In this document: positions 3,982 through 10,605 of the stretch, one piece after another
How the letters are laid out: each line of letters begins with the position of its first letter
Position numbering within the stretch: position 1 is the first letter of the stretch
Notes under the pieces: model-generated
Told to the model about the DNA's origin: nothing
The model's database searches: none
Seen by the model: the letters and a program-made list of their open reading frames with translations, nothing else
NCBI GenBank assembly: GCA_027489955.1
Contig: JAIXYZ010000013.1
Location: forward strand, 930,001-994,000
DNA length: 64,000 nt
Direction: 5' to 3'
Source of the DNA: Hyphomicrobiales bacterium
GTDB taxonomy: Bacteria > Pseudomonadota > Alphaproteobacteria > Rhizobiales > Beijerinckiaceae
Program-made: the position numbers and the translations under genes

Positions 3982-5301
3982 ATGGATCAGCCGCTTCGGG
4001 TCGGCGTCGCCGGCCTCGGGACCGTTGGCGCATCGGTCGTGCGCATCCTGTCGCGCCGCGAGAACGCCCTCGGCCGCGCAGGCCGCGGCGTCCGGCTGGT
4101 CGCGGTCTCCTCCCGCACGCGCAACCGCGATCGCGGGATCGACATCGAGCGCTGCGCCTGGTTCGACGATCCGGTCGCGCTTGCCCGCTCGAGCGAGCTC
4201 GATTGCTTCGTCGAGCTGATCGGCGGCTCCGACGGCGTCGCCAAGGCCGCCGTGGAAGCCGCGCTGGAATCGGGCAAGCACGTCGTCACCGCCAACAAGG
4301 CGCTGCTGGCGGCGCACGGCTTGGACCTTGCCCGCCTCGCGGAGAAGAACGGCGTGGCCCTGGCCTTCGAGGCCTCCGCCGCCGGCGGCATTCCCATCGT
4401 CAAGACGCTGCGCGAGGCGCTCGCCGGCAACGAGATCACCCGCGTGTCGGGCATTCTCAACGGCACCTGCAACTACATCCTCTCGCGGATGGAGCACGAG
4501 GGCCTGTCCTTCGAGGATTGCCTGGCCGATGCCCAGCGCCTGGGCTACGCCGAAGCCGACCCGACCTTCGACGTCGGCGGCTTCGACACGGCCCACAAGC
4601 TCTCGATCCTGGCGAGCCTCGCCTTCGGCACCGAGATCGACGCCGACGCGATCTATGTCGAGGGCATTTCCTCGATCACGCCGCTCGACCTGAAGATGGC
4701 CGACGACCTCGGCTTCCGGATCAAGCTCCTGGGCGTCGCAGAGCGCAACAAGAGCGGCATCGAGCAGCGCGTGCACCCCACCATGGTGCCGAAGGATTCC
4801 GCGATCGCGCAGGTCATGGGCGTGACCAACGCGGTCACGATCGATGCCGACGCCGTCGGCGAGATCACGCTCGTCGGCCCCGGCGCCGGCGGCGACGCCA
4901 CCGCCTCCGCGGTCGTTGCCGACATCGCGGACGTGGCCCGCGGCCGCTTCGGTGCGCCGTTCGGCCTGCCGATCGCGCGGCTTGAAAAGATGAAGCGCGC
5001 GCCGATGCAGCGCCACGAGGGCGGCTATTACGTGCGCCTGTCGGTCCTCGACCGGCCCGGCGCCGCGGCCGCCATCGCCACTCGACTGGCCCAGGCGGAC
5101 ATCTCGCTGGAGAGCATCGTCCAGCGGCGCGCGGAAGGCCCGGTCCACGACGATCCCGAGCAGCGCTCCCTGCGGGCCGTGCCCGTCGTGCTCACCACCT
5201 ACGCGACGTCGGAGACGGCGATCCGCGCGGCTCTCGACAAGGTTTCGGCCGACGGCCACATCACCGAGCCGCCCCAGCTCATCCGAATCGAACGCGAATA
5301 G
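3982..5301 (+). CDS. hom: Homoserine dehydrogenase
   Basis: Reduces L-aspartate semialdehyde to homoserine with NAD(P)H, the branch toward Thr and Met. The 439-residue protein has an N-terminal Rossmann domain (GVAGLGTVGASV), the catalytic domain with DPTFDVGGFDTAHKLSIL carrying the conserved Asp and Lys, and a C-terminal ACT domain (about residues 350-430), suggesting feedback control by threonine. It is monofunctional, without an aspartokinase. It sits in a same-strand run with the aminotransferase upstream and glpX downstream. Confidence 0.96.
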   Translation: MDQPLRVGVAGLGTVGASVVRILSRRENALGRAGRGVRLVAVSSRTRNRDRGIDIERCAWFDDPVALARSSELDCFVELIGGSDGVAKAAVEAALESGKHVVTANKALLAAHGLDLARLAEKNGVALAFEASAAGGIPIVKTLREALAGNEITRVSGILNGTCNYILSRMEHEGLSFEDCLADAQRLGYAEADPTFDVGGFDTAHKLSILASLAFGTEIDADAIYVEGISSITPLDLKMADDLGFRIKLLGVAERNKSGIEQRVHPTMVPKDSAIAQVMGVTNAVTIDADAVGEITLVGPGAGGDATASAVVADIADVARGRFGAPFGLPIARLEKMKRAPMQRHEGGYYVRLSVLDRPGAAAAIATRLAQADISLESIVQRRAEGPVHDDPEQRSLRAVPVVLTTYATSETAIRAALDKVSADGHITEPPQLIRIERE

Positions 5302-5372
5302 GCCTTCACGCGGCGCGTGGAGGCGTTACAAGGGCCCGGCGCGCGAAAAGGCCGGCCGGAGGAAACACAGCG

Positions 5373-6371
5373 ATGAACCGACAGCTCACCGTCATGCCCG
5401 AACAGCTCATCGAGCGCGTTCTCTCGATGGAGCTGGTGCGCGTCACCGAGCGCGCGGCGGTGGCGTCCGCCCGCTGGCGTGGCCGCGGCAACGAGAAGGC
5501 CGCCGACCAGGCCGCCGTCGATGCCATGCGCCGCGAGCTGAACCGCCTGCCGATCGACGGGACCGTCGTCATCGGCGAGGGCGAGCGCGACGAGGCTCCG
5601 ATGCTGTTCATCGGCGAGCGCGTCGGCAACCAGGCAGGCCCCAAGGTCGACATCGCCGTCGATCCGCTGGAAGGCACGACCCTCTGCGCCAAGGACATTC
5701 CGGGCTCCATCGCCGTCATGGCCATGGCCGAGGCGGGCACGCTGCTCGCCGCGCCGGACGTCTACATGCACAAGATCGCCATCGGCCCGGGCTATCCGAC
5801 CGGCATCGTCGATCTCGACGCGACGCCCGCCGACAACATCAACGCCCTCGCCAAGGCTAAGGGCGTGAAGCCGAGCGAGATCACCGCGCTCATCCTCGAC
5901 CGTCCGCGCCACCAGGACCTGATCGCCGCCGTGCGCGCCACCGGCGCCGGTGTCCGCCTGATCACCGACGGCGACGTCGCGGGCGTGATCTTCACCACCA
6001 TGCCGGCCGAGACCGGCATCGACATCTATCTCGGCATCGGCGCCGCCCCCGAGGGCGTGCTCGCGGCGGGCGCGCTGCGCTGCGTCGGCGGGCAGATGCA
6101 GGGCCGGCTGATCCTCGACACCGAGGAGCGCCGCACCCGCGCCTTCGCCATGGGCGTCAAGGACCCCAACAAGAAGTACGACATGAAGGAGCTCGCCTCC
6201 GGCGACGTGGTCGTGGCCGCCACGGGTGTCACCGACGGCGCCCTCCTGTCGGGCGTCAAGTTCCGCGGCAATGTCATCGAGACCGAGACGGTCGTGTACC
6301 GCTCCGTCACGGGCACCGTCCGCCGGATCCGCGGCGAGCACCGCGAGCTCAGCAAGTTCAGCCTCGACTGA
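5373..6371 (+). CDS. glpX: Class II fructose-1,6-bisphosphatase
   Basis: Hydrolyses fructose-1,6-bisphosphate to fructose-6-phosphate in gluconeogenesis. The 332-residue protein shows the GlpX metal and phosphate sites: VIGEGERDEAPML near residue 68 and DPLEGTTLCAK near residue 98. The ribosome site GGAGGAAA precedes the ATG well. The stop shares one base with the start of the GNAT gene (TGATG), so the two are translationally coupled. Confidence 0.96.
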   Translation: MNRQLTVMPEQLIERVLSMELVRVTERAAVASARWRGRGNEKAADQAAVDAMRRELNRLPIDGTVVIGEGERDEAPMLFIGERVGNQAGPKVDIAVDPLEGTTLCAKDIPGSIAVMAMAEAGTLLAAPDVYMHKIAIGPGYPTGIVDLDATPADNINALAKAKGVKPSEITALILDRPRHQDLIAAVRATGAGVRLITDGDVAGVIFTTMPAETGIDIYLGIGAAPEGVLAAGALRCVGGQMQGRLILDTEERRTRAFAMGVKDPNKKYDMKELASGDVVVAATGVTDGALLSGVKFRGNVIETETVVYRSVTGTVRRIRGEHRELSKFSLD

Positions 6372-6842: not shown

Positions 6843-8639
6843 ATGACGTCCACGGCAGGCACGCGGCCCCTGTTCGGCGTGGAGCGCTCGGCGCTCGGCC
6901 GCCGCTGGCTGGCGCGCTGTGCCGGTCCGGCGGAGATGGAGGCCCTCGCCATCGCCCAGCAGCACGGCACGGGAGAGATCCTCGCGCGGGTCCTGGCCGG
7001 ACGCGGCGTCAGGGCCTCGGCGCTGCCGGGCTATCTGGAACCCCGCCTGAAGGACCTTCTTCCGGACCCGCTCGTGCTGCGCGACATGGAGGCCGCCGCC
7101 ACCCGCCTGGCGCTCGCCGTCGAGCGGCGCGAGCGTGTCGCAATCTTCGGCGACTATGACGTGGACGGCGCGGCGAGCGCGGCGCTGCTGGCCGAATTCC
7201 TCATCGGCCACGGCGTCGACGCCGTCATCCGCATCCCGGACCGGATCACGGAAGGCTACGGCCCCAACGTGCCGGCCATCCGCCAGTTGCGGGAGGAGGG
7301 CGCGCAGCTCCTCGTCACGGTCGATTGCGGCACCGCCAGCCATGAGCCGCTGGCGGAGGCGGCGCGGCTCGGCCTGGACGCCGTCGTGCTCGACCACCAC
7401 CAGGCGCCGGAGCAGCTTCCGCAGGCCCTCGCCATCGTCAATCCCAACCGCCAGGACGACCTGTCGGGCCTCGGCCATCTGTGCGCGGCGGGCGTCGTCT
7501 TCCTCACGGTGGTCGCGCTCAATCGCCTGCTGGGCGAGCGGGGCCTGCCGCGCCGCGACCTCAGCGACGCGCTGGACCTGGTGGCGCTCGCCACCGTCGC
7601 GGACGTGGTGCCGCTCGTGGGGCTGAACCGCGCCCTGGTGCGCCAGGGCCTGGCGGCCATGGCCCAGCGCCGCAGGCCGGGGCTCAACGCGCTGCTCGAC
7701 ATCGCCGCGCTCAACGGACCGCCGCAGGCCTGGCATCTGGGCTTCCTGGTGGGCCCGCGCATCAATGCCGGCGGCCGCATCGGCGATGCCGCCCTCGGGT
7801 CGCGCCTGTTGCTTGCGCGCGATCCGCTCCAGGCAGGGCCCATCGCGGCCGAGCTCGACCGCCTGAACCGCGAGCGGCAGGTCGTCGAGCAGGCGGCGGT
7901 GATCGAGGCGGAGGCTCTGGCCCAGCGCGCGCTCCACGACGACCCCGGCCTTGGCGCCCTGGTCTTCGGCGATCCCGACTGGCACCCGGGGATCGTGGGG
8001 CTCATCGCGGCGCGGGTGAAGGAGCGCACGGGCCGCCCGGCCTTCGCCTTCGCGCTCGATGCCGGGGGTGGCGGCACCGGCTCCGGGCGCTCCGTGCCCG
8101 GCGTCGATCTCGGGCTGGCGGTTCGCGCGGCCGTGTCGGCGGGCGTTGCGGTGAAGGGCGGCGGCCACGCCATGGCCGCGGGCGTCACCGTGCCGGCCGG
8201 CGGCCTTCCCGCCTTCGCCCGGTACATCGAGGCGGCCCTGCGCGAAGCGGTCGCCGCGCGCAGCGCCGTCACAGATCTAGCCGTGGACGGCTCCCTCGCG
8301 GCTGCGGCGCTCCAGCCGGACCTCGTCGCCTCGCTCGATCGCGCCGGACCGTACGGATCGGGCAATCCTGAGCCCGTCTTCGTGCTGCCCCATCACCGGC
8401 TGACGGACGCGACCGTCGTCGGCCAGGGCCATGTGCGCGGGCGCGTGCGGTCGGGCGATGGCGCGGTCGCGTCCTTCGTCGCGTTCCGCAGCGCCGAATC
8501 CGATCTCGGGCGCTTCCTGCTCGCGGCCCGGGGCGAGAGCGTGCACCTTGCCGGCATGCTCGCCGTGGACCGATGGGGCGGGGCGGAACGGGTGGAATTG
8601 CGGGTGACCGACGCCGCACCGGCAAGACCCGGCCCATAA
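6843..8639 (+). CDS. recJ: Single-stranded-DNA 5'-3' exonuclease RecJ
   Basis: Degrades single-stranded DNA 5' to 3' in RecF-pathway recombination, mismatch repair and base-excision repair. The 598-residue protein has the DHH phosphoesterase motifs FGDYDVDGAAS, the LLVTVDCG motif and LDHHQAP in the first half, DHHA1 with GGGHAMAAGV near residue 440, and a C-terminal OB-like domain. Length is normal for RecJ. It is the last protein gene of the hom-glpX-GNAT-recJ run and is followed by a separately promoted tRNA-Glu. Confidence 0.96.
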   Translation: MTSTAGTRPLFGVERSALGRRWLARCAGPAEMEALAIAQQHGTGEILARVLAGRGVRASALPGYLEPRLKDLLPDPLVLRDMEAAATRLALAVERRERVAIFGDYDVDGAASAALLAEFLIGHGVDAVIRIPDRITEGYGPNVPAIRQLREEGAQLLVTVDCGTASHEPLAEAARLGLDAVVLDHHQAPEQLPQALAIVNPNRQDDLSGLGHLCAAGVVFLTVVALNRLLGERGLPRRDLSDALDLVALATVADVVPLVGLNRALVRQGLAAMAQRRRPGLNALLDIAALNGPPQAWHLGFLVGPRINAGGRIGDAALGSRLLLARDPLQAGPIAAELDRLNRERQVVEQAAVIEAEALAQRALHDDPGLGALVFGDPDWHPGIVGLIAARVKERTGRPAFAFALDAGGGGTGSGRSVPGVDLGLAVRAAVSAGVAVKGGGHAMAAGVTVPAGGLPAFARYIEAALREAVAARSAVTDLAVDGSLAAAALQPDLVASLDRAGPYGSGNPEPVFVLPHHRLTDATVVGQGHVRGRVRSGDGAVASFVAFRSAESDLGRFLLAARGESVHLAGMLAVDRWGGAERVELRVTDAAPARPGP

Positions 8640-8697: not shown

Positions 8698-8772
8698 GCG
8701 GTCTTCGTCTATCGGTTAGGACACCAGCCTTTCACGCTGGGAAGACGGGTTCGATTCCCGTAGACCGCGCCA
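8698..8772 (+). tRNA. tRNA-Glu (anticodon TTC)
   Basis: Full cloverleaf: 7-bp acceptor GCGGTCT / AGACCGC, anticodon stem CCAGC / GCTGG with loop CTTTCAC (anticodon TTC at 8731-8733), T-arm with GGTTCGATTCC, discriminator G, and an encoded CCA at 8770-8772. Confidence 0.98.
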
Positions 8773-8843
8773 TCCCGCCGCTTCTTTTCCCAAGCATGAA
8801 TCCGATTGTCAGCGGGCGGCCGCAAGCCGTTGGCGTGCTTTGG

Positions 8844-8940
8844 AAAAAGAAAGGACCGCACGCGGTGAGCGGCGGTCCGAAGTCCAAGGAGGAAACGCCC
8901 CGCGAAGGGCAGGAGCGCCGACGCCAATCGGCTTTCCATG
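8844..8940 (-). ncRNA. Predicted trans-acting small RNA with anti-Shine-Dalgarno motif
   Basis: On the minus strand a promoter at 8947-8975 would start an RNA near 8940. The roughly 97-nt transcript folds as hairpin 1 (GCCGA / TCGGC, 8917-8932), hairpin 2 (GCCC / GGGC, 8897-8910), an unpaired stretch containing CCTCCTT (8886-8892), then a 7-bp terminator stem GGACCGC / GCGGTCC (8853-8878) and the tail TTTCTTTTT. Several hairpins, a CU-rich exposed anti-ribosome-site and a terminator are typical of rhizobial small RNAs such as the alpha-r14 type; I cannot assign a family by eye. Convergent to tRNA-Glu. Confidence 0.5.
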
Positions 8941-8946
8941 ACCTAA

Positions 8947-8975
8947 GGGTAGTGCCGCCCCGGCAGTGTCTCAAG
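8947..8975 (-). promoter_or_regulatory. Promoter of the predicted small RNA, with upstream palindrome
   Basis: On the minus strand CTTGAG (complement of 8970-8975) and CTACCC (complement of 8947-8952) are 17 bp apart. The -35 is near consensus; the -10 is weak. The palindrome GGACAG-CAATC-CTGTCC (8983-8999) is centred about 51 bp before the predicted start, a usual place for an activator. Confidence 0.45.
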
Positions 8976-9174
8976 GCGAAATGGACAGCAATCCTGTCCG
9001 AACGCCGGTGAGATGTGCGGCAACCGCTCAAAATTCGGGCAGAATCGCAGACGTGAGCGGAATCGCGCACGATGAGGCAATCGACCGGAGGCACGAACGC
9101 CCATACCGATCTGGCACGCGGACCGCGCGAGGCCACTGGACGAACCTTCCGGCCCGGGTGTTCAAGGGGGCCTG

Positions 9175-10605
9175 ATGGAGGGATCGATGGACAATACCAG
9201 CCCGCTCTGGCGTCACGTGGATGCGCTCGGCGACGATTTCGCGGCCCTGGCGGACCGCGTCTGGGCGACGCCCGAGGTCTGCTACACCGAGGCCCGCTCC
9301 GCCGCCGAGCATCGCGCCATGCTGGAACGCCACGGCTTCCGCATCACGGATAACGTGGCCGGCATCCCGACGGCCCTGATCGGCGAAGCGGGCGAGGGCG
9401 GACCCGTCATCGCGTTCCTGGGCGAATACGACGCGCTCCCGGGCCTCAGCCAGGAGGCGGGGCTCGACCGGCCTAGCCCGGTGGAAGCGGGCGGCCACGG
9501 CCACGGCTGCGGCCACAACCTGCTGGGATCGGCGGCCCTGCTCGCCGCCACGGCCACCAGGAACTGGCTGCAGCAGGCGGGGCTGCCGGGCCGGGTTCGC
9601 TATTACGGATGCCCGGCGGAAGAAGGCGGCGCCGCCAAGGCCTTCATGGTGCGCTCGGGCGCGTTCTCGGACGCCGACATCGCCATCTCCTGGCATCCCT
9701 ACAGCTTCTGGGAGGTGACCCCGCCGGTGTCCCTCGCCAATACCCGCGCGGATTTCACTTTCTTCGGCCGCGCCTCGCACGCGGCGGCCTCGCCCCATCT
9801 CGGCCGGTCGGCGCTCGATGCCGTCGAGCTGATGAGCGTCGGGGTGAATTACATGCGCGAGCACATGCCGAGCGACGCGCGCGTCCACTACGCCGTGCTG
9901 GAAACGGGCGGGATCGCGCCGAACGTCGTCCAGGCCCGCGCCCGGGTGCGCTATTCGATCCGTGCCCGGGACCTGCCGGGGATGCTGGAACTGGTGGAGC
10001 GCGTGCGCAAGGTCGCCGAGGGCGCGGCGCTGATGACCGAGACGCGGATGGAGATGCGGGTCGTCAGCGCGGTCTCCAACATCGTCGGCAACACGCCGCT
10101 GGAAGCCGCGCTGCAGACGATCCTGGAGGATCTCGGCCCGCCCGTGTTCGACGAAGCCGACAGGGACTTCGCCCGGCGCATCCAGGCCACCCTGACGGAG
10201 GGCGACATCGCCGCCGTCTACCGCGCCATCGGCATGGCGCCGCGGGACGTGCCGCTGGCGGACTTCACAGTGCCGGCGGACGCGCGCCGCCAGCCGCTGC
10301 TCGGCTCCACGGACCTCGGGGACGTGAGCTGGGTCGTGCCGACCGTGCAGGCCCATGCGCCGACCATGGCGGTGGGAACGCCGCTCCACACCTGGCAGGT
10401 CGTGGCGCAGGGCAAGGCGCCCGCGGCGCACAAGGCGATGATGCACGTCGCCAGGGCCATGGCAATGCTCGCGGCCCGCGCCGTCGAGGATCCCTCGCTC
10501 ATCGCCGCCGCCAGGGCCGACCTTGCCGCCCGGACCGCCGATACGCCCTATGTCTCCCCGATCCCCGCCGGCGTCGAGCCGCCGCTCGACATGTCGACGG
10601 CCTGA
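9175..10605 (+). CDS. M20 family amidohydrolase, AbgB-like
   Basis: A 476-residue zinc-dependent amidohydrolase of the M20D group, closest in style to subunit B of p-aminobenzoyl-glutamate hydrolase. The metal-site signature GHGHGCGHNLLG is near residue 108, and PAEEGGAAK (conserved Glu pair) follows. The dimerisation insert is in the middle and a final His-containing segment (HAPTMAVGTPLHTWQ) is present. Two ATG codons, 9175 and 9187, both have purine-rich ribosome sites, so the true N-terminus may be four residues shorter. The substrate, an N-acyl or aminobenzoyl amino acid, is not determined. No AbgA partner or AbgT carrier is adjacent. Confidence 0.9.
   Translation: MEGSMDNTSPLWRHVDALGDDFAALADRVWATPEVCYTEARSAAEHRAMLERHGFRITDNVAGIPTALIGEAGEGGPVIAFLGEYDALPGLSQEAGLDRPSPVEAGGHGHGCGHNLLGSAALLAATATRNWLQQAGLPGRVRYYGCPAEEGGAAKAFMVRSGAFSDADIAISWHPYSFWEVTPPVSLANTRADFTFFGRASHAAASPHLGRSALDAVELMSVGVNYMREHMPSDARVHYAVLETGGIAPNVVQARARVRYSIRARDLPGMLELVERVRKVAEGAALMTETRMEMRVVSAVSNIVGNTPLEAALQTILEDLGPPVFDEADRDFARRIQATLTEGDIAAVYRAIGMAPRDVPLADFTVPADARRQPLLGSTDLGDVSWVVPTVQAHAPTMAVGTPLHTWQVVAQGKAPAAHKAMMHVARAMAMLAARAVEDPSLIAAARADLAARTADTPYVSPIPAGVEPPLDMSTA

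Follow-up and report, generated by a model that had tools for sequence, protein, structure and literature searches.

The locus described here raises the question of what is encoded by a short minus-strand unit with the parts of a small RNA (sRNA) gene, and which signal might control it. The unit lies in a 64,000-nucleotide stretch of DNA from a Hyphomicrobiales bacterium (the window), where the intergenic region 8770-9174 contains both the sRNA gene and an upstream palindrome. Two plus-strand genes are convergent with it: a tRNA gene (8698..8769; Rfam RF00005, 60.2 bits), assigned to glutamate because of its anticodon TTC, read by eye, and recJ (6843..8639; Pfam DHH, DHHA1 and RecJ_OB). The divergent neighbour, also on the plus strand, encodes an M20-family peptidase/amidohydrolase (9175..10605; Pfam Peptidase_M20). 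The best explanation, which is probably correct, is a paralogous trans-acting sRNA of the alpha-r8 family that would be controlled, through the palindrome, by the regulator of gltB, the gene for glutamate synthase, and would silence mRNAs for uptake and carbon metabolism.

The sRNA gene and its family

The gene is read on the minus strand. Promoter-like boxes (8947..8975) consist of CTTGAG at 8975-8970, a 17-nt spacer and CTACCC at 8952-8947, from which a start is expected near 8940. The sRNA, of about 97 nt, is placed at 8844..8941, where the -10 box was used to estimate the 5' end and the T run marks the 3' end. A first hairpin, predicted by folding at 8912..8937, pairs GCCGAU with GUCGGC around a UGGC loop, within GGA/UCC; a second (8896..8911; UGCCCU, UCGC, GGGGCG), also predicted and found at an equal position in relatives, stands directly 5' of the anti-Shine-Dalgarno core UUUCCUCCUU (8886..8895). 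The intrinsic terminator (8844..8878) comprises a 7-bp stem, GGACCGC/GCGGUCC, followed by UUUCUUUUU; in the DNA, its arms GGACCGC (8878-8872) and GCGGTCC (8859-8853) precede TTTCTTTTT (8852-8844). Upstream, an operator-like palindrome (8983..8999) is formed by GGACAG (8999-8994), GATTG (8993-8989) and CTGTCC (8988-8983), with its centre at about -51 and 7 bp between it and the -35 sequence CTTGAG. The promoter, two 5' hairpins, terminator, palindrome and spacings listed in the original prediction are thus all present on the minus strand.

A generic consensus scan called neither a promoter nor a terminator at the window sRNA. The rules of that scan require a -10 box with A as its second base and a terminator loop of at most 8. 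We attribute the miss to the poor fit of CTACCC to TATAAT and to the terminator arms, which are uninterrupted, being 12 nt apart. Also on the minus strand, a 134-aa open frame (8732-9136) spans the tRNA gene as well as the terminator; it is probably not a gene.

The Rfam covariance search proposed with the original prediction returned family RF00519 (suhB, described as MmgR in Rfam), which equals the alpha-r8 family of trans-acting sRNAs. The match (8839-8917, minus strand) covers model positions 1-77 of 77 and scores 53.9 bits against a gathering cut-off of 41, with an E value of 2.6e-8 for the whole window. An author-built covariance model, R1, scores the window sRNA at 50.3 bits, the window belonging to its training set. 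A second, canonical RF00519 copy elsewhere in this genome reaches 65.1 bits, and both copies are over the cut-off. The canonical copy sits between a gene for N-formylglutamate amidohydrolase (Pfam FGase) and a gene of the inositol-phosphatase family. Linkage to an FGase gene is absent at the window copy, whose neighbours are recJ/tRNA and the M20 peptidase gene, but this is no bar to membership, because the excerpted text of PMC12559287 describes paralogues at other places. By its sequence, the window copy is a paralogous alpha-r8 member, genuine and recognisable as belonging to a known sRNA family. The covariance search, the paralogue and the relatives all agree with the initial view of a rhizobial-type sRNA with its own promoter, terminator and anti-Shine-Dalgarno stretch.

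RF00519 matches at E 0.001 or better were present in 55 of 60 genomes, this one included, and exceeded the cut-off in 49 of the 60. In the excerpts of PMC12559287, alpha-R8 RNAs are reported throughout the alphaproteobacteria except the Rickettsiales, many genera being multi-copy. In one relative (G014) there are 14 alpha-r8 matches, distributed between the largest contig and smaller contigs, and 12 of these exceed the cut-off.

Two genomes of the genus were compared, the present one and its congener G001, each with two copies over the cut-off. The second copy of G001 likewise lies between recJ/tRNA and an M20 gene (read by eye) and has the promoter CTTGAG-N17-CTACCG. A 60-copy covariance model detected no alpha-r8 RNA in the best 80 recJ loci of other species, which come from Microvirga, Chelatococcus, Bosea, Methylobacterium and many metagenome assemblies; RecJ identity to these relatives is at most 66%, which sets the organism close to Microvirga and Chelatococcus, within the Beijerinckiaceae broadly defined, and the strongest stray matches of the model in these loci had E values of 0.063, 0.23 and 0.77. 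At least two recJ loci, with 42 (L140) and 307 (L148) bases after recJ, are too short to judge. This confinement of the location to the genus, together with an altered core and a family score below that of the canonical copy (53.9 versus 65.1 bits), would suit a duplicate of the canonical sRNA that is decaying and no longer expressed. Such decay is quite improbable, given that both genus members retain the hairpins, the terminator and the core, the latter in an identical variant.

Fold, core and predicted targets

The window core UUUCCUCCUU matches the family 10-mer UUUCCUCCCU at 9 of 10 bases. The exact 10-mer is found in 84 of 88 alpha-r8 copies and the variant in two of the 88, those of the window and G001; since the gathering pattern for this set fixed GTTTCCTCC, with C or T allowed at base 9, other core changes would escape the count. 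The CCTCCTT within the core had been described as exposed, which is nearly correct: of the 10 core bases, 7 are unpaired in the best fold, while a weak stem of 3 bp takes up the other 3. Folding of 8943-8844 gives a free energy of -43.4 kcal/mol (z -2.5; 5 of 200 shuffles were equally good) and shows the two 5' hairpins and the terminator.

Compensatory changes in relatives, suggested originally as a check on the structure, were found in the terminator stem, but none was both-sided in the second hairpin. They were counted in alignment A2, which holds 60 hand-picked copies of the 88 and in which the second hairpin of the window and G001 rows is offset by one column. Both-side changes affect 6 of the 9 pairs predicted; these six all belong to the terminator, whose two inner pairs changed on both sides in 25 and 18 rows and were broken or gapped in 11 and 10. 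The second hairpin keeps its position in relatives with zero both-side changes across the 60 rows, so that covariation is silent about it. Although they differ in sequence, the 5' segments of the 88 copies have better folds than shuffled versions, with a mean z of -1.7.

Among known systems, the closest are alpha-R8 RNAs SisA-SisD of Caulobacter crescentus, which, in the excerpts of PMC12559287, share with the window sRNA the family, a core following a weak hairpin and the terminator, and likewise comprise several paralogues with separate promoters, one adjoining the FGase gene. They differ at the end of the core (CUU versus CCU, a CUU-for-CCU change here). MmgR of Sinorhizobium meliloti is of the same family and length class and has the anti-Shine-Dalgarno motif (PMC7143759; PMC12542648, both in excerpt). 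AbcR1/2 (alpha-r15, activated by LsrB/VtlR) belong to another family, but are likewise anti-Shine-Dalgarno sRNAs with an activator site upstream of the promoter and with transporter targets (excerpts of PMC7486931, PMC8844928 and PMC10746234). NfeR1 (alpha-r14) is also an anti-Shine-Dalgarno sRNA, tied to nitrogen control; it carries three CCUCCUCCC copies, whereas the window RNA has none and a single CCUCC core (PMC10746234, in excerpt).

SisA was reported to repress a large regulon in Caulobacter, with Hfq and likely by pairing of the 10-mer, and the sponge RNA CrfA to mask that 10-mer (excerpts of PMC12559287). By analogy with Caulobacter SisA and Sinorhizobium MmgR, the window sRNA would bind Hfq via its 3' part. 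Its core would then pair with ribosome-binding sites of the GGAGGAAA type and block translation of mRNAs for uptake and carbon metabolism.

The pattern GGAGGAAA-N2-10-ATG has 9 matches in this genome versus 0 in a backward control that is blind to ordinary purine-rich ribosome-binding sites. The best fit to the window copy, AGGAGGAAA-N2-10-ATG, has 0 matches in this genome and 2 in G001. Five of the nine predicted sites start recognisable genes, namely those for a DctP-type TRAP binding protein, an ABC-type solute-binding protein, glpX, cytochrome aa3 subunit IV and an FGGY kinase resembling glycerol kinase; the other four (L259, L260, L263 and L264) fell outside Pfam testing and may be spurious frames. 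Transporter mRNAs are accordingly named here as predicted targets of the sRNA. Predicted pairing of the canonical copy equals or betters that of the window copy at 7 of the 9 sites, and separate target sets for the two are therefore unsupported. The glpX gene (5373-6371, plus strand; Pfam FBPase_glpX) is 3.5 kb from the sRNA gene and starts behind GGAGGAAAC (5358-5375), a sequence complementary to the cores of the window and canonical copies alike; the candidate target site GGAGGAAACACAGCGATG at its start (5358..5375, plus strand) is predicted to pair.

The palindrome at alpha-r8 promoters

The motif GGNCAG-N5-CTGNCC stands 7 bp before the -35 box of alpha-r8 paralogues in four genera. Since the same motif with the same spacing precedes alpha-r8 RNAs in other genera, the window palindrome is considered to be beyond chance. 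Among 70 upstream regions gathered solely on account of the RNA, the full 10-of-10 motif occurs four times (window included), always exactly 7 nt before CTTG, and 20 shuffle rounds of these regions yielded 0 at full score; the free position 3 of the motif was fixed after inspection of sequences. At the next lower score, 4 instances were observed versus 0.25 expected, only one of which (L007) has the 7-nt spacing.

Across 298 genomes of the bacterial family, GGNCAG-N5-CTGNCC-N7-CTTG matched at 46 sites, spread over 42 genomes, and the backward control at 20. Thirty-two of the 46 sites were assessed, 30 of them from their loci. CTTG lies 67-77 nt before an alpha-r8 core at 19 of the 30 (window included; genera g1, g12 and g32) and does not at 11, and the two further sites, L003 (g32) and L036 (g34), are also alpha-r8 promoters. 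The operator was present in 21 of the 88 copies, a count that is biased because 18 of the 88 came via the operator pattern, and in 4 of 70 in the unselected set. A search reaching beyond the bacterial family found the operator in 7 of 199 genomes (this one and six others), and none of the six other sites precedes an alpha-r8 core. The loose palindrome is not enriched throughout this genome (8 sites versus 17 in the backward control). One promoter-like site outside the family, at position 1501 on the minus strand of L254 (G418), reads GGTCAG-N5-CTGTCC-N7-CTTG with no alpha-r8 core behind it, and perhaps serves another transcript with the same operator.

Frames were listed for eight loci. Seven of these belong to other genomes and have the operator or nearly so; their neighbours, read by eye, differ, and the palindrome therefore travels with the RNA. 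One operator-type copy (L182) is in tandem with another alpha-r8 copy. These differing neighbours, combined with the same spacing, speak against the notion that the palindrome controls not the sRNA but the divergent M20 peptidase gene. That notion draws on the position of the palindrome within the shared intergenic region 8770-9174 and is highly improbable, as G001 keeps its M20 neighbour (by eye) but not the palindrome.

It may also be asked whether the palindrome acts as a short terminator or insulator hairpin, or as an RNA element, and not as a protein site. An A tract and TTTT flank it in g32 and in some g12 copies, and the corresponding palindrome of gltB (see below) would fall near the mRNA 5' end. 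Position 3 of the arms is unpairable (T/T, G/A or A/C) at 8 of the 19 alpha-r8 sites, and G/T at 3, so that a protein site with a free position fits better than a hairpin; moreover, the window site lacks an A tract and is followed by ATTT only, and the distance to the -35 box is constant. A hairpin function is thus judged improbable.

The original prediction had placed the palindrome upstream of the sRNA, at about -51. The comparison supports it, at the level of sequence, as a promoter element common to alpha-r8 copies of other genera, but in the congener G001 it is degraded (GGGCCG-GTCTG-CCGACC, 8 of 10, with unchanged spacing), which counts against a vital role there. Retention of the RNA and its promoter, but not of the palindrome, in G001 is what would be expected if the window copy were an ordinary alpha-r8 paralogue, expressed from a plain constitutive promoter, and if the palindrome were in this genome no more than incidental or a relic. 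Caulobacter paralogues also have unrelated promoters, with no motif common to them in the excerpts of PMC12559287, whereas here the palindrome recurs across several genera. The fixed 7-bp spacing before alpha-r8 RNAs of other genera, recovered by a blind pattern scan, argues against a constitutive promoter, as does the identity with the gltB site given below; such a promoter is the less likely reading, though one with appreciable weight.

As candidates for the regulator, the patterns for NtrC, LsrB, VtlR, PhaR and sigma-54 were tried and rejected, being absent from both strands of the 260 nt upstream of the core. This holds for the NtrC-type TGC-N11-GCA on either strand and for the LsrB/VtlR motifs TGCA-N6-GCAT and GCAT-N3-TG-N3-T (0 in the same 260 nt, both strands), the latter motifs setting the window copy apart from AbcR1/2 (excerpts of PMC7486931, PMC8844928 and PMC10746234). 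The IscR motifs printed in the excerpted part of PMC11475020 bear no resemblance to the palindrome by eye. In S. meliloti, PhaR represses mmgR and binds to its promoter (PMC12542648, in excerpt). The mmgR gene has a PhaR/AniA site and is activated by NtrC, unlike the window copy, which lacks either motif and has another palindrome instead (excerpts of PMC7143759 and PMC12542648).

PhaR-type boxes (YGCRNYGCR) are a frequent feature of the family, occurring, often in pairs, in 72 of 88 alpha-r8 upstream regions versus 14.6 expected, and in 57 of the 70 promoters not chosen by operator. The canonical copy of this genome has 2 and the window copy 0. A PhaR box accompanies the operator in 17 of 21 copies (3 of 4 in the unselected set), and the operator is therefore not generally a replacement for PhaR control. 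The operator copies without a box are those of the window, L159, L173 and L182; the window-type copy of G001 has neither the full operator nor a PhaR box.

A palindrome shared with gltB

The strict sequence GGACAG-N5-CTGTCC occurs exactly twice in the 3.13-Mb assembly, in the window and at C4:57836. The latter site lies upstream of gltB, an open frame recognised by its Pfam domains GATase_2 and Glu_syn_central. All 12 palindrome bases are identical between the window site and the gltB site, an agreement that speaks against an incidental palindrome before a constitutive promoter. This palindrome was located 5' of gltB in 7 of 7 genomes first chosen. In the order, TAGGACAG-N5-CTGTCC was found in 63 of 199 genomes (17 control matches), and gltB begins behind the site in 28 of 30 such loci, L231 and L232 giving no gltB match. 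Of 190 genomes drawn from the class, only this one matched the strict TAGGACAG-N5-CTGTCC; the 187 that belong to other orders gave 0 matches.

The two settings of the palindrome differ. In 35 gltB rows, picked for an exact palindrome and with this genome counted twice, nearly all have a CTTG starting 39-43 nt before the palindrome (32 such starts), which puts the palindrome just past the -10 box, a repressor-like place. At the sRNA, its centre near -51 puts it in an activator-like place. As judged from these positions, the gltB regulator would also bind the window palindrome and probably activate the sRNA, and at gltB, with its site just downstream of the promoter, the same regulator would repress. 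That one protein serves both palindromes is what we infer, and the shared palindrome hints at a connection between nitrogen supply and the sRNA. Control of gltBD by NtrC has been described in some alphaproteobacteria (PMC5343134, in excerpt). In excerpts of the open-licence literature, neither a gltB regulator for this palindrome nor the palindrome itself was found.

It is tentatively proposed, with somewhat less than even confidence, that a regulator confined to the Hyphomicrobiales binds GGNCAG-N5-CTGNCC and controls gltB, and that in the Beijerinckiaceae it also drives a subclass of alpha-r8 RNAs from 7 bp before the -35 box. If so, one protein would switch nitrogen assimilation and the anti-Shine-Dalgarno silencing of uptake and carbon genes in opposite senses, and the sRNA subclass would have spread together with its operator as a unit. 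Lacking a PhaR box, the window copy would thus report nitrogen/glutamate status and not PHB status. The new part of this proposal is the operator common to alpha-r8 copies and gltB, the sRNA family itself being already known. The redundancy of alpha-R8 copies is left open in the excerpted text of PMC12559287, and the operator shared with gltB offers a testable answer, namely that the copies answer different signals.

No gene for the regulator was marked by a strict-consensus site in this genome or its congener, where palindromes with one mismatch, exact sites included, were no commoner than in the control (8 versus 14 and 9 versus 11, respectively). The palindrome itself could serve as a short DNA bait for finding a regulator of gltB in this order. 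A short open frame of 23-44 aa, mostly basic, separates the palindrome from gltB in 7 of 7 loci (L199, at 4906-5028, and the gltB upstream regions L200-L205). Behind this frame, inspection by eye shows a GC-rich inverted repeat, and the two are perhaps a leader peptide with an attenuator.
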